NCBI GenBank assembly: GCA_034406715.1
Contig: CP137865.1
Coordinates: 1,525,317 to 1,589,316, forward strand
DNA length: 64,000 nucleotides
Direction: 5' to 3'
Origin: Rhodotorula mucilaginosa
Taxonomy: Eukaryota > Basidiomycota > Microbotryomycetes > Sporidiobolales > Sporidiobolaceae
Part shown: positions 47,513 through 64,000 of the stretch, piece by piece
How positions within the stretch are numbered: the first letter of the stretch is position 1
How the letters are laid out: each line of letters opens with the position of its first letter
The notes under the pieces: model-generated
What the model saw: the letters and a program-made list of their open reading frames with translations, nothing else
What the model was told of the DNA's origin: nothing
The model's database searches: none
Translations under genes and position numbers: made by a program

Positions 47513-50500
47513 ATGTTTGGCCAGCTCGGCAACAAGCTCTTGTGCGCCATCCCTCTCTCTCCTCCGAGACCTTGCGCCCCACTCACCTCTCGCACCTCTT
47601 CACCCTCGCAGCGGACCGGATCCGAAACTCGAGTTTACCAAGCCCGGGCACGGACTCGACTTGCTCGCGAGGAGTAGCGCAGTCAGTCCCCGTCATTCCC
47701 CCTCTCCGCTCCCGCTCATTCGACTGACTTTGGACCTCTTGCTCTTCGGGTACAAAAGACCATCCCCGAAGACAGTGCGTTTCGCCTGGCTTTGCGCTGC
47801 TGTGACTACTCGGACTGATATTCTCGACTGATCCGCAATTGCCCGTGCCGTGCGAACGCCAGGCCCGTATTGGAGACAGGTAACCTCTTCTTTCTCTCAA
47901 CAGTCTTTCTTCAAAACTAACCGCAAACGCCCGCCCGTAGTACCTCACCTTGTTCGACTCGCCGACGGACCTCGTCCTCCTCCTCCCGGCTTCGCAACTC
48001 GCGCACGCCCTCCGCTCCAACCCGCGAAACGTCGTCTCGCTCATCCGGTACTGCGTCCGCACCCTCGTCCGCCATGCGAGCGGAACACAACGCCGAAAGC
48101 CAGGGTGGGAGAAGGAGGTGATGAATGCCGTGAGGGTGTTGGCGAGGGTACTTCCGGTCGTGTTGGCGCCGAGGCAAAGTGCCGCCGCCGCCGGGGAGGA
48201 CGAGTTTGAACTGGCCGTGTTTTGGGCGCAGGAGAGTCGGGTCCGATTCGAGCCGGATGAGGAGGATCAAGCGGAAATGCAGGCGGAACCGAGCAGCGGG
48301 GAGAGGCCGGCGTCGGCGTCGGCGGAGGAGGGGCAGTTTGTCCTCGCGGACGAGGACGACGACGAGGATCAGGAGGAGGAGGGAGACGGAACCGACGCTC
48401 CTCGGCCGCAGGACAACTCGGCTCCGAACGCATCACCACCGCCACAACCACCACTCGCTGAACAACTCCTCGCGGCGTTGGTCGACTTGTTGTTTGTGCC
48501 GGGGTTGACATTGCCACGATCGTCGGTTGACGACAGCAGGAGTGCCGCCGTTGTTGTTTACACGATCTGGTGCGCGGTCTGACCTCGTTGACGGGTGAGC
48601 TCGGATCACTGGCTGACCCGCCCCCTCCGCAGGGAGTACGGGATCGCCTCGCCCGCGCCACCACAGCAGTCGTCACCCTCACAACCGCTCCCGATCCTCC
48701 TCGCCCGCCTCGAAATCCTCCGCCTCTTGTCCCTCCTCATCTCCCTCCCATCTCTACTCACTCCGCCCGGCTTGTTCCCGACGATCCCGAACCGGTGGAG
48801 AGACGCGCTCGTTTCCGGTCGGGTGGTCCACGGCGGCGACAAGAAAGTCGTCTTGTGCTTGCTGTGCTCGGTGTTGAATACCGCTCTCGCCGAGGGGGTC
48901 AGGATCGGAAATCAGCACCCGCACCCGCAGCCTCAGCCTCATGGCGCCGCGTCCGGAGGGTTCGAGGGGTTGAAGGAACGAGCGGCGAGGTTGGCGGCCG
49001 AGACGGCGAGGCGGACGACCCACGCGGCGACCGGAGCTGCTGCCTCTACCTTCTCTGGAGGCGCAAGTGCGGGCGGAGGGAACGGAGAACCGACCGACGA
49101 ACCCAGTGCGAGGCTCGCCCTCGTCGAAACGTGCTGGCAATTCCTCGACGTCGTCCTCGTCGAACATGCTGCCCCTTCTGCCCCTGCCTCGCCAACTATC
49201 GCCAACCAGTTTGCGTACTACTTTTCGAGGTTGCACCGACCGGGGGATTTCGACCTCCTTGCGAAGGGGATGGTGGGGTTCCTCGAAGCGGGGTTGTTGG
49301 CGAACCCGACCACGGCGGGAGCGGGTCTCGCAGCTTCTTCCTCTTCGCTCTTTGCGCCTCTCGCGGGGATGCTCTCCTCGGCGTCCGTCGCGTCTGGACC
49401 CACGACCGCCGCCACCGTCACTTCGCGCTGCACGACCGAAACCCTCGCCGTCCTCCTCCGCCTGATCGAAACGAACCGCAAGTTCGTCCAACACCACCTC
49501 GTTTCGGAGAACCCGGCTTTGCTCGTGCGGGCGTTGGTGGCGGTGGTGGCGAGTATGGTTGATTGTGCCCTGGAGGGGGAGGAGGCCAAGTTGGGGTTGG
49601 TCAGGTTGGCGAGTATCGTGATGCAGAGTTTGACGGCCCAGGTTGCGGGTGGCGGTCATGGTGTGGGCGGCAAGGAGGGGCTCGTGAGAGCGTTGAATGC
49701 GCCGTTGGAGCCGAGGGTGATCGGGTTGGCGCTGGCAGCGGTGGTGAAACGACAAGTTGCCGCGCAGGGGATCGAGACCGAGCCGGCGGATGCTGCGTAC
49801 GGAGGCGCGAGCTCGGATCAAAAAGCCGAAGCGAAGATCGTCACCTTTTCGGAATACCTCGTCGTGAGTCTCTTCAGTCGTCCATGCGTCGCCTTCCCGG
49901 GGCAGCCTGCTCACCTCGCAACCACCGCCACCGCAGATCTCGCTTCACGCGCTCGTCCTCCCTGCCGATCCCCCTTCTGCCTCTTACCGCGCCGCCCTCT
50001 CGACATTGTACCCTTCCCTCCTCCTCTCGGTGACCAACCTCTCCCCGCTCGTGCGCGAACTCGAGAACGAAGCGGCGACGCGGTTGGTGCGTGTGTGGTT
50101 GGCGTTTTCGGCGCCGAGTTGGGTCTTGATGGAGGAAGGGAACCCGCGCTTGGTGTTTTGTGAGTTTGGGTGTGGGGGCTCTTTCTTTGCTTCGACTCGG
50201 CCGCTCATGCTCTCGTCTCCGTCCGCCCAGACCTGCTCGAGGCGTTCAACAACATTGCGCAGTACAATCTCGATCGGGTGCGTCTCTCGCTCTTCCGTAC
50301 AAGCTGCCTCTACACACTTGCCTGACACATCCTCAATCGCGCAGAACCCGTACCTCTTCTACGCCCTTGCCGTCTCGCTACCTCGATTCGACCTCTTGGC
50401 CAATTTCACCCTCGCGCTCGGAATCGCCGAAGCTCGACGACTCCGCGCCGCTCGTCGGGAGCGACTTCGTCCGATCCGAGAAGGCGCTGAGGACGAGGCG

Positions 50501-51306
50501 TCGTCGTCGTCATCGGCCGCCCGTCGACCGAGCCATGACGGCCCGTCCGAAAAGGCGTTGGGCAAACGCCGCGCCAGCTCGGTCTCGCTCGGCGGGTTGA
50601 GCCTCAGCGACACTCACGCCGCCGATGCGACGGCGACGGCGACGGCGCCGCCTTTGAATCTGAGTCGATCCGAGTCGTCTGCGTCACTGGGTGGGGCTTC
50701 TTTGTCGGGAGAGGCGGTCGACGCGATGGGTGAGAATCGACCGTTTGTCGGCAGGAACGGCTTCACGCCGACCGAATCGTGGGTCGCGAGTTGGCGCGAA
50801 GGGTGAGTCTGGTTGTTTGAACGGGGTCAGCGAGCTCGAGAGGTGCGTGCACTCACACCTCGCCCGAAAACAGCCTCCCGCTCGACACGCTGCTCGTCCT
50901 CCTGTCCGAGATCCGACATCGCCTCGCCGAGCTCGATCCAAAGTTTCCCGCCTCGAATCCGTCGATCGATGTCATCTCGTCCCTGCGGAAAGTGCTCGCG
51001 TCCAAGGAGGTGCAGACGATCCTCCCGCCGAAACCCGACTCGTTCCCTCGCACGCGCAAATTCCTCGCTTCGCCCTCGTCGAACAGCTGGCTCGCCTCGG
51101 TCATCTACGCGCGCTTGTACCTCTCGCAGATCGACTACCTGCGCGATTCTTTGCCCGTGCAGCTGTTTGCGGTCGCGCACGCTCCGAAACACGCGCCGCG
51201 CCTCGGACAACTCGGCGCCGAGATGGAGCGGGTCAGCAGATCGGCGGTGCAGGTCGGTGGCAGGGTCGGAGGGGTCTTGAGCGGGGTGCTCGGTCGGTTC
51301 GCGTAG
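47513..51306 (+). CDS. HID1-domain protein (Golgi/dense-core vesicle trafficking)
   Basis: Predicted 1050-residue protein from ten exons: 47513-47541, 47612-47681, 47759-47774, 47863-47879, 47941-48569, 48633-49863, 49937-50159, 50231-50277, 50345-50802 and 50874-51306. The pattern follows animal HID1: PDPKLEFTKP at the start, PYWRQYLTLF, a run from AVRVLARVLPVVL to ALVDLLFVPG, the intron-split IWEYGIA, YLLEAFNNIAQYNLD and the C-terminal WVASWREGLPLDTLLVLL. HID1 proteins are peripheral Golgi proteins in the dymeclin/Ecm30 superfamily, with roles in secretory traffic. Two consecutive microexons (16 and 17 nt) are needed to join SSA to YLTLF in frame. An acidic Asp/Glu-rich loop and a His/Pro/Gln-rich loop are lineage insertions. 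Confidence 0.9.
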
Positions 51307-51855
51307 GGCTGATGTGGGTCTTCCTCGAGGTTCGTTCTGCCGGACTGTTTTCACCAGACCTTTGCTGAACAATCCCCTCCAGCTGATCACAGATACTCAT
51401 CTGGGTTGTGTAGCCCGCGCCGTGCAAGTTGCCTTTCGTTCCCACACCGGTCCTTTGTTTCGGAATTCTCGCTCGTGAATCCTCCGATTCGACATACGGT
51501 CGCGCTTTCGGTGACTAGCTGCGGTCTTCCCGACGCTCATCACGACCATCGCGCCACAAAGACTGACCTAGACTTCAGTCATGGACACGCACGGCGTTGT
51601 ACAATCCGCCCCGGGCTGCTGAACCGGATCCTCCTCGTTGGTGGCGTTTCCCCCGAGGCTGCCTCCGCTGGCGCACACGGACCCGGACCGCTTAAACTGG
51701 CACATTGGTGTGCTGTAGGCGCTGTGATAGCCCGCTTCTGATTCGCTTTTCGGATTGTCCGCGGACCTGACCTCGAAGCGGACCCTGCTCGAGCTACTCT
51801 GCAGCTATTAGGGCCTGCGGATCTCTTTGTCCTCCTCTTTTTCCCTCACCACCAG
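51307..51855. other. intergenic region upstream of the unknown family
   Basis: About 550 bp with no recognised gene. Its distal part holds the TCCGCGGA element of copy P1. Confidence 0.5.
51755..51765. promoter_or_regulatory. TTGTCCGCGGA palindromic element upstream of P1
   Basis: The 11-mer contains the 8-bp perfect palindrome TCCGCGGA and lies about 90 bp before the P1 start codon. The identical 11-mer occurs at a similar distance before P2 and P3, followed in each case by a CTCGAGC-like or CTGCTCGAGC segment. Abutting CCG/CGG half-sites are a typical target type of fungal Zn2Cys6 regulators. Regulation is inferred only. Confidence 0.55.
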
Positions 51856-52914
51856 ATGATGGCACAACCGGCTACGCCCGCGATTGCGCAGACAGACAAC
51901 CCGTTCTACCGCGCTAGAGAACAAGAGATGCTCCGGCAGGTGAGAAGCGGTCGTGGTCACGGCGGCTTCGTGGAGTTCTTTTGCAGATCCAAGCGCCGAG
52001 TCTCACGCACCCCTTGGCCCCCAGATCCGCGTGTTTGGCGCTGCAGATGTAGGAAAGTTCATTGAAACAGCGGTGCTACATGTCGTCAAGGACATCTACC
52101 ATCCGACACTCCTTAGTGCCTACGAGGCCGAGCACGAACGCATTGACGAGTACAGCTTGTCTCGGGGCGAGCCGTGGGTTTTCCAGATCGTGCTTCGCAA
52201 GATCCCCGGTAAGTGCTAATCCATTTACATGGGGTCATCAAGGTCGTTTGTAGAGCTAAGGCTCGGATGATACGCAGACTCTGCCGGAGTACTCCGAGAG
52301 CAGCCAGTTCTTCTTTTGCCCGCACAATCTGTCATGACACGCCGTGTGAAGACGCACTTGCCTAACGAAAGGCCTGCTGCTCACAACCCTGGAAAGGAGA
52401 CGGCCACCGTCGAGTTTCCGAGCGGTGTGTTCCTGCAAAGGACCGACGCACCTTCAGCTGGCCTGGTGGCACCTACGCCCGTGCCCAGCATTCTCTGGAT
52501 GGCTCTCGACAGGACACAGCCCAACAATCCCTACGCACCCCAAGGTCGAAATGTAACGTGGGCGCACATCCGCGAATGGCAGACCGACGCAGTCCGAGCC
52601 GCAGCGGACTCGCATCAAAACAAGTGGACTTTCAGCTGGCCCATCCAGCCGTGGTGAGCTCTTTTTGCTGAGCACAAGTGCAGAAGATCGCAGTACTCAT
52701 GTACGCAACTCTCCAGTGGGCGATTCTGTGGCCAAGGTATACTGTACGAATGCGACAAATGGAGGATCCGCTCGAGTTCGCAACTCATTATTGGCCACCA
52801 CCGGCGGTCATCCACTGGCACTTCACGGCCTCTGTCCCAAGCCCGGACAGGCCCTCCCTTGACTTGATTCTTGAGTTTGCATTGCCTGCGCCCCCTTTGC
52901 CTCGAGCAGGCTGA
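51856..52914 (+). CDS. unknown tandem-family protein, copy P1
   Basis: Predicted 273-residue protein from exons 51856-51939, 52025-52208, 52278-52653 and 52737-52914. The total is a multiple of three and the exon phases match copies P2 and P3. I recognise no domain. Visible conserved blocks are IRVFGAADVGKFIETAVL...IYHP in exon 2, DSAGVL...LLLPAQS at the start of exon 3, VPSILWMALD, EWQTDAV, and in exon 4 RQMEDPLEFATHYWPPPAVIHW...LDLILEFALP. There is no signal peptide or membrane segment. The last intron uses a weak CAAG acceptor at 52736, which is the only AG that keeps the family frame. The protein is probably cytosolic or nuclear with unknown function, in a family expanded near this telomere. 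Confidence 0.6.
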
Positions 52915-53460
52915 AGTTCCCGAGTTCGGACCATTGTTGCGCGGGCCAAACAGCCGTCACAGTTTCTTGCAAAGCTACTTGATGTCGAAACCTTTCTGTT
53001 CAATGGTTGGGTATAGCGGGTCTTGATAGTCAGACAGAAAAGTACGCTCATAAGCTCGCAGCTGCAAAGTCCCGCCTGATTTCAGCCGGCTTGCTGCCAC
53101 AGGCGCTGCAGAGAATGCCAGCTCATCTTTGCTAGCATCTCGTTCATGCTTCGTGCAAACGTTCAAACTCCGGGCGTGGAGTCTTCTTGATCCAGCAATC
53201 CTTTCCGCCGCCGATCAAATGTCGAGTTTCGCAAGCACGGAGATCGGGCTTCCTCGCGCGGACTGGCACCGCCCTCCTTCTGCGGGTTAGACAAAGCGAG
53301 CGAGTCGTGCGAATGCGCATAGTAGAGCCCATGGCTTGCGGGCCAAGATGCCCAGGCGTTTGTCCCGGCTTGTCCGCGGACTGCAGACCTCGAGCGTGCT
53401 ACGCTGCGAATCCGCCGCTCTGCTTCTCTTCTCCGCACCGCTCCTAGCCGCCCCGGCAAC
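52915..53460. other. spacer between P1 and P2
   Basis: No gene was recognised. The distal part carries the P2 promoter element. Confidence 0.5.
53370..53380. promoter_or_regulatory. TTGTCCGCGGA palindromic element upstream of P2
   Basis: The same 11-mer as before P1 and P3 lies about 80 bp before the P2 start. It is preceded by GGC and followed by CTGCAGACCTCGAGC, which closely matches the P3 context. See the P1 element for interpretation. Confidence 0.55.
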
Positions 53461-54439
53461 ATGAACTACGGAAATCTTGGCACCAGTAACCAGTGGCAAG
53501 TCGCACACGGCGCGCTGCCCCTGCAGGTAAGTCGAGGACCGTGCACTTGGAACCAAAGCCAACTCTCGATCTTTAACACAGGGCTTCCCGCCCACAGATT
53601 GCGGCTTTTGGCCTTGACAACACCAAGATCCTCCTCGCACAGGTCCTGCCGTTACTCGTTGACCAGATCTATCTCGAACACATCATCAAACCCGAGTGGC
53701 AGCATGACTGGGCGACGATCCTAGCGGATCACGGGATTCACGCGATAACATGTCCAATCCCTGGTGCGCACAGCTCTTTCGGTATGAGCTAGTCATGCAA
53801 GCTGTGCTGAGCTTGTATGCTGCAGACATAAATGGACAGCTCCCAACGGTGATCACGCTTCCGGCGTTCTCTATCGACGTGGTTTATCTCAAGACCCGCT
53901 CAAGATCCGTTCATGCTGGACGTCAGTCAGCTAGTACTGCCTGCGTTCTAGACGCGGGTCCTGTGCCTCCGGTCCCTCTTCAGGTCCAGGGTCAGGCGCT
54001 GGTACCCAGTATCCTCCCAATAGCTCGTATTTCGTGGACCTTGCCCCGGACAGCTACAAGGAGTCGCGCACAATTCCGCCCAGAGCCAGAAGCTATCTCC
54101 ATCGAACTTGTCCGCAGATGGCAGACTTGGGCAGTTGATCCGCATGGAAATGGCACATGCTGCACGACTTTTAATTTCACTATTCCCTGTAGGTTTTCAG
54201 CTGCTGTTGATTGCACAGTTGGACTTCTTACTCACCCGAGACATCCTACAGGGACCTTGCACCCCCACCATCTATACTGCCACATTTCCCTGCGACAGGT
54301 CGAAGATCCGGACGAGCAGGCGCGCAGCTGGCCTCCCTCCCCAAAAATCCACTGGGAGTTACGAGCTATGTTTAACGGTGTAGTAGAGCCTGTCCTGGAT
54401 GTGCTGCTCCGATTCGAGCCCCGGGTGCGGCGTCAATGA
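53461..54439 (+). CDS. unknown tandem-family protein, copy P2
   Basis: Predicted 260-residue protein from exons 53461-53526, 53598-53763, 53826-54188 and 54252-54439, all in phase. It is clearly related to P1 and P3: IAAFGLDNTKILLAQVLPLL, DINGQL...ITLPAFS, VPSILP, RRWQTWAV, and the C-terminal RQVEDPDEQARSWPP with KIHWELRA and VLDVLLRFEP. The final intron is 63 nt, a multiple of three, so its retention would not break the frame. The start codon sits in a CTCCTAGCC-type leader shared with P3. No known family was recognised, and no signal peptide or transmembrane helix is apparent. Confidence 0.6.
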
Positions 54440-54867
54440 GCAGCAACTTGGGAGTCTTTAGCTGTTTCCCCCGTCCAGACTCTTTCCCAACCCTGTACAC
54501 CGCCTCATTTCTGCAGTTTCCATCTAGGCAGCAAGTGGAGCAATGTAGAATTTTTTTTTGAGCAATTCTCCTGCAAAGCAGCCGCCGGAAGTGCCTGGCC
54601 GAGTTGATATTCGAGGCGCGTCGTTGTTCCTCGCGCGGGGACGCGCTGAATCGTACTTCTGCCGGTGGTCAGCCAAAGTCTCGGCACCGTGTGAAGCATT
54701 CTATAGCCGGAGTTCTTCCTTAACTCGTGACGCTTGACAATGAGGCTGTCGCGAGAACCTTCGGCTTGTCCGCGGAGTGCAGCGCTCGAGCCTCCTGCAG
54801 CTACCCCGCAGTGAACCCCGCCACTCTGCTTCCCCTCTTCTACGCCACTCCTAGCCACCATTGCAGC
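54440..54867. other. spacer between P2 and P3
   Basis: No gene was recognised. It includes a T-rich run near 54550 on the minus-sense side and the P3 promoter element. Confidence 0.5.
54766..54776. promoter_or_regulatory. TTGTCCGCGGA palindromic element upstream of P3
   Basis: Third copy of the 11-mer, about 92 bp before the ATG at 54868 that corresponds to the P2 start. The element and leader are preserved although the gene body carries a nonsense change. Confidence 0.55.
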
Positions 54868-55881
54868 ATGAATCAGTCAGCTCCAGCGCTTTTCGGACAA
54901 TGACTCACCCGTCTTATGAGCAGCGGTGGGCATGGACCAGAATGCTCACTCAGGTGCGGGCTCTCCGCGACAATCTCACATCCGACAGATCATTACTGAC
55001 TCTTTCTGATGAGCAGATTGGCAGCTTTGGGCCCAACAATACGCGGATGCTCGTTGCGGATGCATTGAAGGCACTTGTGCACACGATTTACCATCCAGAC
55101 CTGATCAAGAAGGAGTGGCTTGACTGGCATCATGTCCTGGCGGCGCAGCGAATTGCACCGTCATTCCAGGCTGTCCCTAGCAGGTCACCACTTGCTTATG
55201 TGTGCTTAAAGTGTACTGACCTTCATTTGTGTAGATGCAGATGGAAAGCTCGAATCGCTCGCCGTCATCAGCCTGCCGGCTTCTTCTCTCACAACATACC
55301 TTCTCGAGACATGTTTGCCTCTCAATGAACACACCCCAATTCCTACGGTTTCGGTAAATTTACCCCATGGCGCACCGCGCCTTTGTGCCTCGGCCCAGGC
55401 ACCGGTGCCTAGTATTCTCCCGATGACGGATAATCCGTTGCCGCTGGAATACCACTGCACGCAAGGAACCGCTGGGGGCAGCTGGCAGTACCAGCCTCAA
55501 GGTCGGCGCTCTTCAGTTTGGTTTTACCGCTGCTGGTAGACCCCGGCGGTTAGAGGCCACTCGGGCGAGGACTCAAACACGGACAGCGCCTGCTGCCTTT
55601 CTTTCGCCTTTGATTCTACCTGTGAGTTTCCAGTATGCAGGCTGCTTGTTGCTGCATGCCCAGGCTCATGAGCGGGAACATTTGCAGGGAGTGTTTCTCC
55701 GCTCTTCGCCTCCCATCATTACCGTGTGTTCATGCGCCAACTCAAAAATCCGCACAAGTTGGCGCACATCTGGCCTCCGCGCCCGGCAGTCCACTGGGAA
55801 TTCCAAGCTTGGCATCACGGTGTACAAGAGCCGTTCTTGGAGCTTATCCTCCAATTTGTACTGCCCGGCCAGCATCACTAG
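54868..55881 (+). pseudogene. unknown tandem-family member P3, likely inactivated
   Basis: The exon layout parallels P1 and P2: about 54900-54953, 55017-55179, 55235-55621 and 55688-55881, which would encode about 265 residues. Family blocks are clear: IGSFGPNNTRMLVADALKAL, DADGKL...ISLPASS, VPSILP, and RQLKNPHKLAHIWPP with AVHWEFQA and LELILQFVLP. Three lesions are visible. First, the ATG at 54868, aligned with the P2 start by its leader, runs into a stop after 11 codons, so only a later ATG at 54900 reaches the family frame. Second, the exon 2 donor is GC instead of GT. Third, the conserved WQT of P1 and P2 reads Trp-TAG-Thr at 55537-55539, a single CAG-to-TAG change. The frame beyond the stop is intact to 55881, suggesting recent loss or stop readthrough. 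Confidence 0.65.
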
Positions 55882-56160
55882 GTCGGCGAGGACTTGTCAA
55901 AATTGTTTCTTGGGTACGATTGGGACGAGCGCACGCCTGACTGCAATGGACCTTTGATCAGAATTAGTTCTTCCCTTGCGAGAGTCACTCGCAGCTATAG
56001 GATTACGGTGGCAAAGTTTGTCCCGCCGTGAAGCGCTCCGAAAGTAACACCAAGCCTGAGAAGGCTCCCTGGAAGACGGCCGTCTCTCGCCTCGGAGGAG
56101 CCTTTACAGAAGAAAAGAGTCGCAACAATCCATTGCGCCATCGATCCCGCCTCCCGGGGA

Positions 56161-57378
56161 TTACAACCCCGTGTACCCCGTCATCGCCGTCCCTTCCCGC
56201 TCGCCCCGAATCGCTCCCATCCTTGCCGCGTCCATGCACCCGCCCGGATCTCGCATCCACCACTCTTCCGTCTCGCGGTGCTGCTCCGCCAGCGGGTCGA
56301 GGTCCTTCAATCGCGTAAAGGCGAGGGAGAAGAACGGACGGAGTTCAGCGATCTCCATGGTTGAGATGTTGGGCATCTGCGTGTGTGTGTGTGCGGCGGT
56401 TTCGGGTCAGCTCATGCGGGTGGGGCGACACAAGGAGAGGGATTCGTGGGCTACGCACGCCGAGGTGGACGGGGTTGATCGCGCCGAGACCTTCGCGGAC
56501 TTTGGCCTGCCGCGCTTCGCGGATGTCTTTGAGCAAGAGTCTTATCCGATCGGGCGAGGCCAAGTCGTCCGAGGCGCTGCCGGGCACGTGTTCTTAGTGT
56601 CAGCTGGGTGCGTTCGGTTGCAGGAGAAAAGCGGCTTGTTGTAAAGACGCTCACGTTTCGAGGAGGACTTTGGAGACTTCGAGGTAATCCCGCGGCAAGT
56701 CGCTGAACTCGGCCTGCTCTCGTTCGGCCTTGAGCGTGTCTTCCAGGTAGGCTGTTTCGGGAGCGTTTCGGCGTTAGTCCGGGACACTGGGGGTTGGTGT
56801 AGTTCTCGGGAGCGCTGGCGGGGAGAGCGTTCGCTTCGAGTGGCAATCTCGTTCAAAATCGTCGATCCTGCCTAGATCGCAGACTTCCCACTCGCAATCC
56901 TGGTCCACGAGAACGAGAGCTTGAGACTCACGGACACTCATCCACTGCGGTGCGACCACGCGGCATTTCCGCTTCTTTTTGAGGTGGACGGCGAGCCAGA
57001 GCGGGACCCAGGCTTTTTGAGGCGGGACGAGCGGTCCGTAGGTCAGGTGTCGCTGCGGGAGTGCGGGTGTGAGTGAACGACGCAGGCTTCGACTATGAGG
57101 CGCAGCTCCTGGTACGGATGCAAGCGAGGAGAGCCATGTCCCCATTGAGCAGATCGACAGGAACTCACCCCGTCGAGCCCCTCGATGACGGGCATGCGGA
57201 CGCTCGGTACGATCTCGACGTAGCCCTCCTTGCCCTTGCCCTTGACGTTGTTGCCGCGCTGGGCCTGGTGCGCGAGGTCTCGCTCGACTTGGCTCCATCC
57301 CGCCGAGGCGCCGTCGAGGCACGCAAACTCGACGTCTTGCGGGAGCGGACCGCGCCGACGCGTGTGGTGCACCGACAT
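56161..57378 (-). CDS. PSF2: GINS complex subunit PSF2
   Basis: Predicted 253-residue protein from minus-strand exons 57378-57169, 57052-56932, 56751-56655, 56576-56459 and 56376-56161. Characteristic stretches are PLWLAVHLKKKRKCRVVAPQWM, YLEDTLKAERE, FSDLPRDYLEVSKVLLE, RIRLLLKDIREARQAKVREG and ISTMEIAELRPFFSLAF. PSF2 is one of four GINS proteins that join MCM2-7 and Cdc45 in the replicative CMG helicase. The N-terminus (from MSVHHTRRRG) includes a Lys/Gly-rich loop longer than in yeast. An in-frame ATG at 57639 would add a Ser/Arg-rich extension; the shorter start is preferred because PSF2 normally begins close to the first helix. Confidence 0.88.
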
Positions 57379-57950
57379 GCCGCTGTTCTGCTTGATCAAG
57401 CGGTCCGGAGCGGGGTTCGTGTAGGCAGGACGCGTTCTCGTTTGGGCTGATGGCGATGAGAAAGACCGGCGACTTTGCAACGGGGACTCGCTCGAGCTGG
57501 AGGAGTCGGGCGCTGCTTCGGACCAGCTGAGCCTTGTGCTTGTAAGCTGCTTTACAGCAAGAGCGTTGTGTCGAGTGAGCGGCACAGGTCGAGTCGTGTT
57601 TGCGAGGCGTCGCGGCGCGTCATCTCTTTGCCTTTCCACCTCACACCGCTCGGCTATGATTCAAGCTAGATGCACGGAAGTATGGACTAGATGCTCTCAT
57701 CCGTGCCAACTGGATGTCGCCGTGTCCGCCCGCCCCGCTGCCTCGACTGGTCCTCGCTCTTTCGCTTCTCGCCAGGCCCCGCCAACACGACAACAACCAC
57801 GAGGGCGCGACCGGCGGCATAGACACCCATACGCTCATACTTAGACGAAGCGCTTTACTTCAGGACGCACCGACTATAGCTTGTCGGTACTCGGCCGATC
57901 TCGCCTGGTCTCGCGTCCTAAATGGCAGGTTCCTCTTTCGCCAGCTTACC
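57379..57950. other. intergenic region upstream of PSF2
   Basis: It contains the PSF2 promoter and possibly a 5' UTR. No additional gene is well supported. Confidence 0.45.
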
Positions 57951-58175
57951 ATGGCCAGTCTCAACCCGGGTCAGATCAAATCTCAACAGATCCCTCTTCC
58001 GGCCGATACCCTCGTCGACAGCACGAACCCTTGTCCGAAATATCAACACGGCTTCGACGCGTCCAACCTGCTAAAAGGCGACCGCGCTGGCAAAGAGCTG
58101 TCGCACCTCTGCTTCCTGTCCGGAGGCAACCCGCTCTTACTCGACGACTCGGTCAGATGCACTTGCTGCGGATGA
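57951..58175 (+). CDS. possible short hypothetical protein (74 aa)
   Basis: An ATG-initiated open frame gives a 74-residue protein starting MASLNPGQIKSQQIPLP and ending with a Cys pair (RCTCCG). It contains no recognisable domain, signal peptide or membrane segment. It could be the first exon of a longer spliced gene whose remaining exons I could not place in the following 600 bp, or a chance frame. Confidence 0.25.
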   Translation: MASLNPGQIKSQQIPLPADTLVDSTNPCPKYQHGFDASNLLKGDRAGKELSHLCFLSGGNPLLLDDSVRCTCCG

Positions 58176-58795
58176 AAGCTTTGCCTGAGACCGCTCGCTG
58201 CGACGTCGTCCGCTTGAAGCAGCTCTGCCCCTCGAGTCGCCACCGACCAAAGCGCACCTCTTTCGGCCCATTTCGATCTGGCCAATCGAGATCCGGCCCA
58301 TGTCACCAAGAGGCGACCATCTACTCATCCTTCTCGACTCTAGAGCGACTACGGCTCCAGTGCGCTGCAGCGAAACAGGGATCTCTTTGGCACGTCTCGC
58401 TGGAGCTGAAATCGCCCGGATGCGGTCCCTCCTTCTCCTCAAGAAGATCTCCCTTGCAGTTCAGCGGTGCGCATTGATCAGGGTCTCGTGGTGGTCATCT
58501 TCGATCCCGAACACAGCATGGCGAGGGCGGGCACAAGGCGAGCATGTCGGTTCTTGCGCGCGTCGAGTGGGTGGCCGGCGTCCTGCAGCTGTAATTTTCC
58601 GACGCCCCTCTCTGTACTCCGGCTGTAGAACTGTAACGTACTCTTTGTGACCACCGGCACAGTCTTTCGTCATCTGTAGCCGTGCATTACCTCGATCTGA
58701 CCTGTTGGCGAAAAATGTGAGTATCTCCGCGGACTTTGTCAGGTGAGGGAGATGCCGTCAGCGAGGCGTCCATCTCCTTCCTCGCGCACTAGACG
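58176..58795. other. intergenic region upstream of ISA2
   Basis: No gene is supported. A CCGCGGAC motif at about 58725-58735 lies close upstream of ISA2, but it lacks the full 11-mer context of the P-family elements. Confidence 0.45.
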
Positions 58796-59813
58796 ATGAG
58801 CTCGCTGTGTGGATACTGTGCTTCTCGGAGCGCTCGCCTGGCCCGATCTGCCTCGCTGCCCAAGTCGATCCGACCTCAGGCCGCCGCCTCCACCTCTCTG
58901 CCTCGGCTCGAATCGGCACCGCGGTCTACACACTCGGCGGCGAAGTCCTCGTCACTATGGGCTGCTCGTGTCTCTCGGAGGGGATTCAGCCATGCAGCTA
59001 CCAGCCCAGCAACACCCTCGCCTCGATGCACCACGCTCGTGAATGCAACTCGCGTTCACCGCCGCTTCATCGCCTGCAAGGCCGAGCCGCCGACCAACCC
59101 GTCAGAAGATTTCGAGCCGGTTGAGCAGGAGCTGAAAGAGGGAGAGGCGCTCGAGATGCATTTGACCGAGGCGGCGATCAAGGTGAGGCGGCTTTCGGTG
59201 CACTCGTTCCTGACGACGAGGCTCTTTCATCCTTTGTCGTTTCGGAGCTTGAAAGTGTCGTATTCCCGTGCTCACTCACGTCCTACACACCCTCGCAGCA
59301 AATCGAACGAGCGCAGGCGAAAGCGAACGACCCGACTTTGTCGCTCCGGCTCATCGTCGAGAGTGGCGGCTGCCACGGATACCAGTACAAGATGCAGGTC
59401 ACGAACAAGCGAGACAGCGATGACTAGTGCGTCCCTTCTCTGGCGCTCTTTCCAGTCAGGAATCCTCGCCGTGACTGACTCGTTCGCCCCGCGATCAACT
59501 AGCCGCTTCGCTCCCCCGACCGAGACGACCGCGTCCCTCCTCGTCGACTCGGCTTCGTTGCCGCTCGTGAAAGGGTCGACGATCGACTATGCGACCGAGC
59601 TGATCGGGAGCGCGTTCCGGATCAAGGACAACCCGCAGAGCAAGGATGCCGGCTGTGGGTGTGGAGTCAGTGAGTTGAGCGTGTTCGCTTGATCTCGTGG
59701 ACCCTGCTTCCGAGCGGAAACACTCGCTCAGATGCGGTCCTGGCGAGACCCGAAAGACGCGTTGCTCACCCAGGCCTTCTACCCGTGCAGGCTGGGAACT
59801 CAAGGACATCTAG
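58796..59813 (+). CDS. ISA2: mitochondrial A-type iron-sulfur carrier ISA2
   Basis: Predicted 234-residue protein from exons 58796-59182, 59299-59426, 59503-59669 and 59791-59813. The N-terminal ~85 residues are Arg/Ser/Ala-rich without acidic residues, a likely mitochondrial presequence. The A-type fold follows, with the three cysteine ligand positions visible: GGCHGYQYKM, then AGCGCGVSW near the end. The final exon is only 23 nt and supplies the last seven residues (WELKDI after the split Ser). ISA2, with ISA1 and IBA57, matures [4Fe-4S] proteins in mitochondria. It is assigned to ISA2 rather than ISA1 from the ESGGCHGYQY context; ISA1 is the alternative. Confidence 0.88.
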
Positions 59814-60287
59814 ACATCTCCACGCCTCCCTCGCTTTGTCGAGGCCATGCAAGTCATCACATTTTCCGACCTTCGACTTCTGTCACCCAAGGTGGTGCTC
59901 GTGGTGCGCCCGAACCTCGGCTACATCAGAGCTGGGCTTACAGACAGGCGTCATTCAGATCTGCGGTGGAATGGATTGCGCGGATTTGTCGAGAGCCGCA
60001 AGATTCGACTTTATCGGACCGTTTCCCGACCTTTGTGCGGCGGTCTCCAGCCTCGTACGCACCATTCCAGTGATGCGCCTCTGTGACCTGGACTCGCTTG
60101 GAAGAAAGCCGCAGAGTGAAACCTTTTCCAGGCGAGCGAGCGAACCGCTTCCGCGTCGCAAAGGAGTCGAGAGACTTCACCACTTCCCGCTCTACAGGCT
60201 CGACAGGCCTTGATTAGCTTTGCTGCTGTACTTTGCTCTCCAGCTTCATCGCCTAGCTCCGCTCCCTGCGTCGCCCTATAGCGCGAG
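59814..60287. other. intergenic region
   Basis: 474 bp between ISA2 and the karyopherin gene. Short frames here show no recognisable product. Confidence 0.5.
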
Positions 60288-63200
60288 ATGGCCGACTCGA
60301 ACGCCGCGGCGTCATCCTCGACCTCGACCTCGTCGTCCTCACCCCTCGAGGCCGTTGTGAACGCGCTCAATGTGCTCTATACCAACCCGGACAAGGACGC
60401 AAAGGAAAAGGCCAACGCCTGGCTCGCAGATTTCCAAAAGAGCGTGAGTCTCCCTCCGTCTTGCGGTCTCCTCTCGGACGACTTGGTGTCTGCGTGGGCT
60501 TGGGACTGGTCAAGGAGGGCTGCTCTGGGAGCGCACTCGAGCTCTCTGAGACGCCCTCCGTGCAGCTGCTGTCCTGGAGCTCTCGGTGTCAGCTCGCCTT
60601 CCTATTCACCACAAAGCCATTACTGACGACCCTGCTCGACGGCAGACCGAGGCATGGTCGACCTCGCAGATGATCCTGTTTGCTCCGGACGCGCCGATCG
60701 AACCCAAGCTGTTTGCGGCGCAGACGTTCCGGAACAAGGTGCGTGCGCGCGTGCGGTCAAACCGGGTTCAGGGCTGGTCCTGACCCTTTTGCCCGCCCCG
60801 CAGATCACGTACGACCTCGAGCAACTCCCCGCCGAGCAACTCCTCCCTTTGCGCGACTCGCTCCTGTCGGCCCTCCGTTCCTTTGCCCAAGGTCCCCGCG
60901 TCATCCTCACCCAGATCTGCATCGCCCTCGCCGACATGGCCCTCCAGCTCTCTCCCGCACAATGGAACGACCCCGTCGCGTCGATGATTGACCAGTTCGG
61001 CAAGGAACCCCAGATGGCCGCCGCGTTGCTCGAGTTTTTGCAAGTCCTCGCCGAGGAGTACAACAGCAACTTCAAGATCAAGGTCGCGAACGATTTCGGC
61101 AGGGAGGGCGACGCGAGCGTGCGGCGCGGCGAGCAGGTGATCGGCTTGCTGTCGATGTATGTGCAGGCGCAGGGTGGGTCGTCGGGGAAATTTCCCCGGT
61201 TCTCGTCTTCCGAGTCTCCGGCTCGCGAGTCTCGAGATCGGCGCTGACCCTTTCGGCTCGAAACCGCCCGACAGGCATCACTCGGCAGCTGCACAACCAG
61301 TGCTTTGCGACGCTGGGCGCCTGGCTCCGGACGGGGCAGACGCGAGCCTCGTCGCTTGCCGGAACTCCCGTCCTTGCCTCTGCGTTTGCCGCCCTCGCCG
61401 ACGACGAGCTGTTTGACCACGCCGTCGACGTCCTCGTCGACATCATCCACGAGACGCAAGAGCTGCAGGAAAACATTGCCGTCATCCAGGAACTTGTCCC
61501 GCGGTTGACCCAACTCGGACCGCAAGTTACCGATCCGGCGACGCGCGAAGACGAGGACAAGATGCGAGGGTTCTGCCGGATCCTCGTCGAGGCCGGAGAG
61601 TGGTACGAGCCGTTGATCGTCCAGCATCCCGATACGTTCTTGCCCCTCGTCGAACTCATCAAGCAGTGCGCGACCGTCGACGAACTCGACGTCGTCTCGA
61701 TCACGCTCAACTTTTGGTACCGCTTGTCCAAGGGCGTGCAAAAGATGGCGCCCGCGCCGATACCGGACGCCCTCTTGCAAGTCTTTGTCGACTTGGTCGG
61801 GATCGTCATCAAGCACCTGCACTACCCGGACGAGGCGCTCAAGGGCGAGGAGCGCGACACGTTCCGAGATTTCCGGCACAAGATTGGCGACACGCTCAAG
61901 GATTGCTGTGCCGTGCTCGGAGCGGGCCCGTGTCTCGAGCAGGCGTACGACATTATCGCGCGCGCGGTCGCGTCCGGTTCGGCGCGGTGGCAGGACATCG
62001 AGGCGCCGTTGTTCTCGATGCGGTCGATGGGCGCCGCGATCGACATTTACGACGACGTCCTCGTCCCCAAGATCATGGAGATGCTGCCGAAACTCCCTCC
62101 GCACCCGCGGATCCGGTACGCCGCGATCCTCGTCATCGGCCGGTACACGCACTGGACGCGCCAGCACCCGGAGCACATCCAGTTCCAGCTGCCGTACGTC
62201 TCGTCCGGGTTTGACGACGACGACCCCGAAGTGCTCGCCGCCGCGTCGCAGACGATGAAGTACCTCTGCAAGGACTGCCCCGAACACCTCGTCGCCTTCC
62301 TTCCGCAGCTGCATGCTTTTCTCGTCTCGGTCTCGGGCAAACTCGGCGCCCAAGACTTGCTCGACCTGTCGGCCGCGATTGCCCACATCATTGTCGCCAT
62401 GCCGCCCGCCGAGGTGGCGTCCGCCTTGTCGCAGTTTGTCATGCCCGACGTCGAGGTGGTGCACTCGGTGTCTGGGTCGGCCGACCTAAGGCGCGCCGCG
62501 GATGCTCTCGAACGGATCGACGTCTACCTCGCCATCATCGGACGCGTGCCCGACCTGCCCGCCTCGTGCGCCGCGACCTGCCAGCAGGTGTGGTCTGTGT
62601 TGGACGGCTTCCTGGCCCAGTTTGGTCACCTCGCCTCGGTCGCCGACCGCGCATGCGTCGCGATCCGCCGCGGCTTGGTCTTTTTCGACGAGATGGCGTT
62701 CGCCGTGGCGCCGAGTGTGCTGGACCGGCTGTCGGCGTGCTTCGAGGCGTCGACCGCGTCGGGATACTTGTGGATCACGGGCAAGGTCATCGAGCAGTTT
62801 GCGGGGCGGTCGGCCGAGATGGATCGCGCCGCCTCGTCGGCGTTTGAGCGTGAGAGCGCGCGCTTGTTTTCGCTCCTGCAGTCGACGCCGCCGACGCAGG
62901 TTCCCGATGGTGGGCCGGGTTCATTCCTCCTCTTTTGATCTCTCTGTTTGCTGACTGCCTTTTCGCTGCCCGCCTTGCTACCCGCTCTTCTCGCCACCCG
63001 CCGCCCCGCAGTCTTGGACGACTACACCCACCTCGTTTTGACCCTGATCGACTCGGCCCCTGCGCTCATCTTCCTCTCGCCCGCTTTCCCTTCCGCCTTC
63101 CAATCCGTCTTGACCGCTTTGACGCTCCCGTCACCGCGCGTCGTCATCACCGCCCTGGACGCCATTCGCGCCGTCGTCGGCCACGACGCGCTCGAGGACC

Positions 63201-63618
63201 CGTCCAGTCCTTTTGCCGCTCCGATCCGCGCCGTCGTCGAGTCGACCGCGCAGCAGTCGATACCTCTGCTCTTGGATGTGCTCGTCGGCGGCGGCGAAGA
63301 CGAGCCCTACAACGTCTTGACGATCCTCCGGTTGCTGTCGATGCAGTTCCCGACGCTGCTCGCCACGACCGTGCCGCCCGCCATCGAGTTGCTCCCGGTC
63401 CGAGCCGCGAGCCAGCAGGAAAAGGCCGACTTTTTGAGTCGGTTCGGCAGGTGAGGGTCTCTGCTCGTTTGCGGGTTTTCCCCCGAGCTGACCTATTTTC
63501 CCCCGGCAGCGCCATCACCGCCCTCAACCCGAACCAGGTCAAGGATGCGTTCACGTGGCTGCTCCGGACGTCACGGAAAAGTCGCGACCGCGCGAGGGAT
63601 CTCGGAGAGGGGAGGTAG
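60288..63618 (+). CDS. importin-beta family nuclear import receptor, MTR10/transportin-SR (TNPO3) type
   Basis: Predicted 933-residue protein from exons 60288-60443, 60646-60738, 60804-61173, 61275-62909, 63012-63450 and 63510-63618, all in phase. After a Ser/Thr-rich start comes an importin-beta N-terminal-like region (LEAVVNALNVLY, KEKANAWLADFQKS, LFAAQTFRNK). Helical HEAT repeats continue to the C-terminus (ITYDLEQLP, RVILTQICIALADMALQ, LCKDCPEHL, TVPPAIELLP, TWLLRTSRKSRDRARDLGEGR). The Arg-rich end and the overall pattern match yeast Mtr10 and human transportin-3, which import SR-type splicing or mRNA-binding proteins into the nucleus. The stop codon lies about 315 bp from the telomeric repeat, so this is the last gene of the chromosome arm. 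Confidence 0.9.
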
Positions 63619-63932
63619 TTCGGGAGGCAGTTTGCTTGCAACTAGCCAATTGCTACAGCAGGAATCCCGACGATTTTTGGCGGGGTCTACTCTGGTCATC
63701 TCCTGCCTTGAAACCGTGAATCGGATCCGACAAGAGTTGGCAATGTAGGTTCAAAGGATGGAAGAGCCGGCAGGGCCCAGGGCTGGTTCAGCGGGGCATG
63801 TCGACAAGGCCCACATATCTGTCACGGTGGATATCGCAGAGAGAGGCAGCGGTTGAGCTGGGCCAGACTGCTTTCCCACCGAGTGGCGCTTCTTGTACCC
63901 AACTTGTGGTTCTTTCAGCTTCAGATTCGTGC
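63619..63932. other. short subtelomeric spacer
   Basis: About 314 bp between the last gene and the telomere repeats. It probably includes the 3' UTR of the karyopherin gene. No repeat element, Y'-like or X-like block, or helicase fragment was recognised. Confidence 0.6.
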
Positions 63933-64000
63933 TTAGGGTTAGGTTAGGGTTAGGTTAGGGTTAGGGTTAGGGTTAGGGTTAGGGTTAGGGTTAGGGTTAG
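63933..64000 (+). repeat. telomeric TTAGGG repeat tract
   Basis: A run of TTAGGG units reaches the right edge. The first copies alternate between 6-bp TTAGGG and 5-bp TTAGG; the distal copies are uniform TTAGGG. The G-rich strand runs 5' to 3' toward the window end, the orientation expected for a true right-hand chromosome terminus. Confidence 0.97.

Follow-up and report, generated by a model that had tools for sequence, protein, structure and literature searches.

A head-to-tail family of three diverged genes with a common proximal promoter near a chromosome end of Rhodotorula mucilaginosa

Tandemly arranged orphan genes are described for the fungus Neurospora crassa, for which the account in PMC2684829 gives 82 tandem orphan pairs, 73 of them head-to-tail, with duplicated pairs most frequent in subtelomeres. 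In Saccharomyces, the palindromic octamer TCCGCGGA is presented in PMC11111045 as the classical pleiotropic drug response element (PDRE), to which the zinc-cluster activators Pdr1 and Pdr3 bind. The stretch of Rhodotorula mucilaginosa DNA analysed here (64,000 nt, positions 1,525,317 to 1,589,316 of contig CP137865.1, hereafter the window) was found to carry three paralogues of four exons each, designated P1, P2 and P3, which lie head-to-tail on the plus strand. The array is like the N. crassa tandem orphans, as outlined in PMC2684829, in that side-by-side, head-to-tail and strongly diverged paralogues are located towards a chromosome end, but unlike them it has conserved cellular genes on its telomere-ward side and a promoter element shared by the copies, and its status as a lineage-specific orphan is putative. 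It has the look of an unassigned family of an ordinary kind, evolving under constraint, and not of something unheard of; one of the three copies carries a stop codon in its middle. The gene models are as follows.

51856-52914, plus strand: P1, exons 51856-51939, 52025-52208, 52278-52653 and 52737-52914; 273 amino acids (aa); intron 3 is in phase 2 and has an AAG acceptor in the model.
53461-54439, plus strand: P2, exons 53461-53526, 53598-53763, 53826-54188 and 54252-54439; 260 aa; all introns are GT-AG, in phases 0, 1 and 1; the intact copy.
54900-55881, plus strand: P3, exons 54900-54953, 55017-55179, 55235-55621 and 55688-55881; 265 residues, the internal stop being counted as one; the frame is interrupted.

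Three homologous four-exon genes on this strand had been proposed in an earlier sequence-only reading, and the models together with BLASTP comparisons bear this out: expect (E) values were 2e-36 for P2-P3, 6e-26 for P1-P3 and 4e-14 for P1-P2. Identity over aligned residues ranged, across the three pairs, from 0.10 to 0.44 in exon 1, 0.17 to 0.41 in exon 2, 0.32 to 0.38 in exon 3 and 0.40 to 0.41 in exon 4. The copies are thus adjacent, homologous and head-to-tail, as in a tandem orphan paralogue cluster, and no fourth copy was detected in the 64-kb window by tblastn and profile searches of its six-frame pieces. The matching intron phases claimed by the same reading hold for P2 and P3 (0, 1, 1) and not for the P1 model (0, 1, 2). 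An open, canonically spliced frame with all conserved blocks was found in P2 and was not found in P1 with its whole exon 3 or in P3, and P2 is the only copy canonical throughout. Intron 3 of P2 (54189-54251) is 63 nt long, which is divisible by three, and has no in-frame stop, such that its retention would add 21 residues.

The coding sequence of the family, as judged from codon fits, is under purifying selection overall. A three-gene codon model made for this analysis (GY94-type, F3x4, 217 ungapped codons) gave a single omega of 0.41 for all branches, with a log likelihood (lnL) of -2424.28 against -2440.59 at omega 1 (2 delta lnL 32.6), and an omega below 1 was also preferred by each of exons 2, 3 and 4 taken alone (2 delta lnL 11.4, 12.1 and 8.8, respectively; in the exon 2 fit the P1 branch ran to its bound). 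These values accord with the constrained core that had been suggested for the strongly diverged copies. As expected for coding sequence, third codon positions were the least conserved in all three pairs, identity there being 0.317 against 0.502 at positions 1 and 2, 0.335 against 0.530, and 0.479 against 0.551. With free branch omegas the estimates were 0.23 for P1, 0.53 for P2 and 0.59 for P3 (lnL -2422.15). The omega of the P3 branch was 0.85, indistinguishable from 1 and from that of the other branches, and a model with P3 neutral (lnL -2423.34) fitted as well as the one-ratio model; therefore the codon data are compatible both with decay of P3 and with its continued constraint. Pairwise, P1-P3 gave an omega of 0.13 over the last 60 codons, with the divergence at its bound; the fits for P1-P2, over all codons as well as over the last 60, and the all-codon fit for P1-P3 reached their bounds and were left unused.

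The conserved blocks listed in the sequence-only reading were recovered with some amendment. The FG, LPA and VPSIL blocks occur in all three copies. D-x2-G-x-L is altered in P3, where the model with a GC donor gives N-x2-G-x-L, and W-Q-T-x-A-V is found in P1 and P2 while P3 has a TAG at the Q column. The C-terminal motif is present in P2 and P3 as RQ-x3-P-x3-A-x2-WPP-x-P-x2-HW, with one residue fewer between P and A than the P-x4-A originally given, whereas P1 has A-x3-WPP, one residue more before WPP, and lacks the second P.

The sequence immediately before the starts is also shared, and the blocks concerned are these.

51749-51855, plus strand: conserved proximal promoter of P1, with TTGTCCGCGGA at 51755-51765.
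53364-53460, plus strand: conserved proximal promoter of P2, with TTGTCCGCGGA at 53370-53380.
54760-54867, plus strand: conserved proximal promoter of P3, reckoned to the ATG at 54868, with TTGTCCGCGGA at 54766-54776.

The 97-108 nt before the starts resembled one another in each of the three pairs (z 5.3, 5.3 and 10.8; none of 200 shuffles as good in each case), the block borders having been chosen after the repeat had been seen. The upstream blocks at about 100-200 and 200-300 nt and the downstream block at 1-110 nt were at background in all nine comparisons, 106 to 194 of 200 shuffles being as good. The island of similarity starts at a 17-nt repeat containing TTGTCCGCGGA. The octamer TCCGCGGA is present in the promoters of all three copies, the palindrome standing 98, 88 and 99 nt before the ATG in P1, P2 and P3 (for P3 the ATG at 54868; the distance to 54900 is 131 nt). 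The P genes share with the Pdr1/Pdr3-regulated yeast genes, in the terms of PMC11111045, the identical palindromic octamer in the proximal promoter; unlike them, they encode proteins without visible transporter features, and the octamer match across fungal lineages is only a lead. By analogy, the P genes may be candidates for regulation by a zinc-cluster factor. A further copy of the octamer at 58726-58733 lies upstream of a plus-strand open reading frame (ORF) at 58793-59689 and may be due to chance, the octamer not being enriched.

Two copies depart from canonical gene structure, and the features involved in P3 are the following.

54868-54903, plus strand: short frame at the start of P3, whose ATG aligns with the P2 start codon; it has 11 codons, ends in TGA and overlaps the model ATG at 54900.
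55180-55234, plus strand: P3 intron 2, GC-AG (GCAGGT...TGTAG).
55502-55687, plus strand: possible alternative P3 intron of 186 nt (GTCGGC...TTGCAG), the best of five P3 models from a mechanical enumeration.
55537-55539, plus strand: in-frame TAG of P3, within exon 3, aligned with the Q of W-Q-T-x-A-V in P1 and P2.

The TAG of P3 is taken as an ordinary stop, because TAG also terminates the Hid1-type and TNPO3-type frames of the window; its reading as glutamine through a code change was ruled out on the same ground. For intron 2 of P3, within the range scanned, a YAG acceptor was paired only with the GC donor at 55180, and the four models with a GT donor all used AAG. Third introns were enumerated mechanically (GT-AG, open frame, WPP kept), which gave 19 models for P1, 56 for P2 and five for P3. 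The predicted intron at 55502-55687 would excise the stop together with the W-Q-T-x-A-V segment of P3, but argues little for such use since even P2 yields 56 models of this kind. In all, P3 is probably a pseudogene or the source of an altered product. With its stop, its non-canonical donor and a branch omega that cannot be told from 1, a family of three working genes is not supported.

In P1 the irregularity concerns the third intron. From the GT donor at 52654, which follows the whole of exon 3, two of the ten AG acceptors tried restore the frame of exon 4; one of them produces a 5-nt intron and a stop, and the other is an AAG acceptor in phase 2. Whole exon 3 is therefore joined to exon 4 in frame solely via AAG. 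Models with a YAG acceptor are available if exon 3 is shortened, for example with the donor after 52552 and exon 4 starting from 52717 or 52684.

Relatives were sought in Pfam, NCBIfam, PHROGs, PDB sequences, viral and prokaryote contigs and plasmids, a set that leaves out fungal proteomes and eukaryote genomes. Nothing in Pfam came near its cut-off: P2 had no match, P1 matched DUF285 (E 0.16), and P3 matched MMM1 (E 0.074) and a transposase (E 0.4). PHROGs and NCBIfam contained no family for any of the three members at E up to 1. A profile search of PDB sequences returned three matches up to E 10, the best (0.14) being glyceraldehyde-3-phosphate dehydrogenase. In viral_contigs there were 54, 17 and 2 pattern matches and in prokaryote genomes 88 and 51, none of which was confirmed, and P3, the sole copy tried against plasmids, was without a match there. 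The statement that no known domain is recognizable is borne out within Pfam, NCBIfam, PHROGs and PDB sequences. At the level of titles and abstract openings, the family is not named in the literature consulted on subtelomeric gene families of Rhodotorula, telomeres of Sporidiobolales and Rhodosporidium toruloides, the octamer in connection with zinc-cluster factors, or orphan genes of Pucciniomycotina and other basidiomycetes, which is not a claim of its absence from print. The highest 19-residue hydropathy across the three proteins was 1.27-1.39, with no strongly hydrophobic stretch, and no signal peptide was apparent by eye in any of them.

The favoured explanation, which we hold to be somewhat probable, is that the array is an ageing tandem family, regulated jointly and encoding soluble proteins of undescribed fold, marked by an old duplication, purifying selection, a common promoter and an interrupted P3. 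The three head-to-tail paralogues form an old tandem array between a Hid1-type and a PSF2-type gene. Their products, going by hydropathy and the lack of an evident signal peptide, may be soluble and intracellular, with a fold not yet described. A Zn2Cys6-type regulator acting at the palindrome could switch the copies on jointly, the duplicates would have drifted about the conserved core, and the third copy would be either on its way to loss or the source of a shortened or alternatively spliced product.

Several results weigh against this explanation. Branch lengths in the all-codon fits were about 1-5 neutral substitutions per codon, and the omega values are rough because divergence is near saturation. 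The P2-P3 pair alone gave an omega of 0.56 overall and of 0.92 over the last 60 codons, which weighs against strong C-terminal constraint on this pair. Introns showed intermediate similarity (in four of nine comparisons no more than one of 200 shuffles did as well), so the likeness of the promoters need not reflect selection alone. With 5 occurrences in the window against 3.26 expected, the octamer is not significantly enriched, so its presence by itself means little; what counts is its conservation at like distance in the three copies. Structure prediction, which the sequence-only reading had called for, was run on P2 exon 3, intron 3 and exon 4, aligned with pieces of P1 and P3 in an alignment (A5) that misplaces the tail of P1 exon 3; it gave no confident model, with a mean predicted local distance difference test score (pLDDT) of 36.2 and all 204 residues below 50.

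A dying family, with P2 as the sole functional copy, P3 a pseudogene and P1 damaged at intron 3, is quite conceivable, if short of an even prospect, and overlaps the favoured explanation save that P1 too would be dead. It would account for the stop and GC donor of P3, for its branch omega and the equal fit of the neutral model, and for the dependence of P1 on an AAG acceptor. GC-AG introns are, however, functional in fungi; the 266-codon model of P3 contains a single internal stop, after which the C-terminal block is still preserved, so that any loss of P3 looks recent; and exon 4 of P1 retains the C-terminal block, with the YAG-acceptor models noted above as a way out for this gene. That the genes belong to a fungal protein family already known, but have diverged too far for profile scans with single sequences to show it, appears unlikely, though less so than what follows. 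A profile from three diverged sequences is weak and fungal collections were outside the search scope, which leaves room for such a family, but Pfam offered nothing near its cut-off and the best PDB profile match was at E 0.14.

The most specific account, a new-fold family of one fungal lineage, co-regulated via the zinc-cluster palindrome, with P3 retained in interrupted form, its stop bypassed by the 55502-55687 intron and a short isoform without W-Q-T-x-A-V that could modulate full-length P2, is judged very improbable. Still less credence is given to a domesticated mobile-element or mycovirus gene amplified in place. The G+C content at third codon positions (GC3), 0.59-0.63 in the P genes against 0.73-0.84 in four Hid1- and TNPO3-type ORF pieces, would suit such an origin, as would the multiple copies and the failure to match any cellular family; but introns 1 and 2 occupy matching places in all three copies, the promoter is common to all, viral_contigs and PHROGs (though neither is built for mycoviruses) gave no relatives, and the direct repeats of the region, the only class of repeat examined, are parts of the paralogues.

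The array is flanked upstream by the Hid1-type gene, of which four ORFs match Pfam Hid1 (E 4e-14, 8e-14, 2e-8 and 9e-4, of which the last misses the curated cut-off), and downstream, on the minus strand, by the PSF2-type gene (PSF2_N, E 7e-11). Beyond the latter come ORFs without a Pfam match and then a TNPO3/IPO13-type karyopherin gene (5e-24), which ends at 63618, about 315 nt before a TTAGGG array at 63933-64000. The P genes thus lie 8-12 kb from the chromosome end, and the proximity to a telomere stated previously is correct as to distance. As to setting it is less apt: the array is in a block of conserved cellular genes, which does not look like a classic subtelomere, and its link to the telomere is weak because the PSF2- and TNPO3/IPO13-type genes separate the two. 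At 60992-64000 a conserved gene comes nearly up to the telomere and leaves hardly any subtelomeric sequence; the chromosome end may have been truncated and healed, or subtelomeres may be very short.

By 2-kb blocks, G+C was lowest at 1-2000 (0.528), and the P array, at 52001-56000, ranked close behind (0.568 and 0.550); most of the window is near the values of 61.83 and 62.05% listed for Rhodotorula toruloides in PMC9027234. A short TCCTCACCG tandem repeat is present at 59-113. No RNA gene was found by Rfam at gathering score within 48000-64000, and ARAGORN, run with the bacterial code, gave no tRNA in the window.

Duplication, purifying selection, a shared element and an interrupted copy are known ingredients of fungal orphan families, so the array is read as ordinary and is not evidence of a new mechanism. 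Since tandem families without an assignment are no rarity in fungal genomes, as far as the account in PMC2684829 goes, its value is mainly in the testable promoter element and the stop of P3. If the family proves undescribed, it would be a clean case for how orphan genes are kept, in which coding blocks and some 100 nt of promoter persist while other sites are near saturation, and one copy has been caught with a stop.

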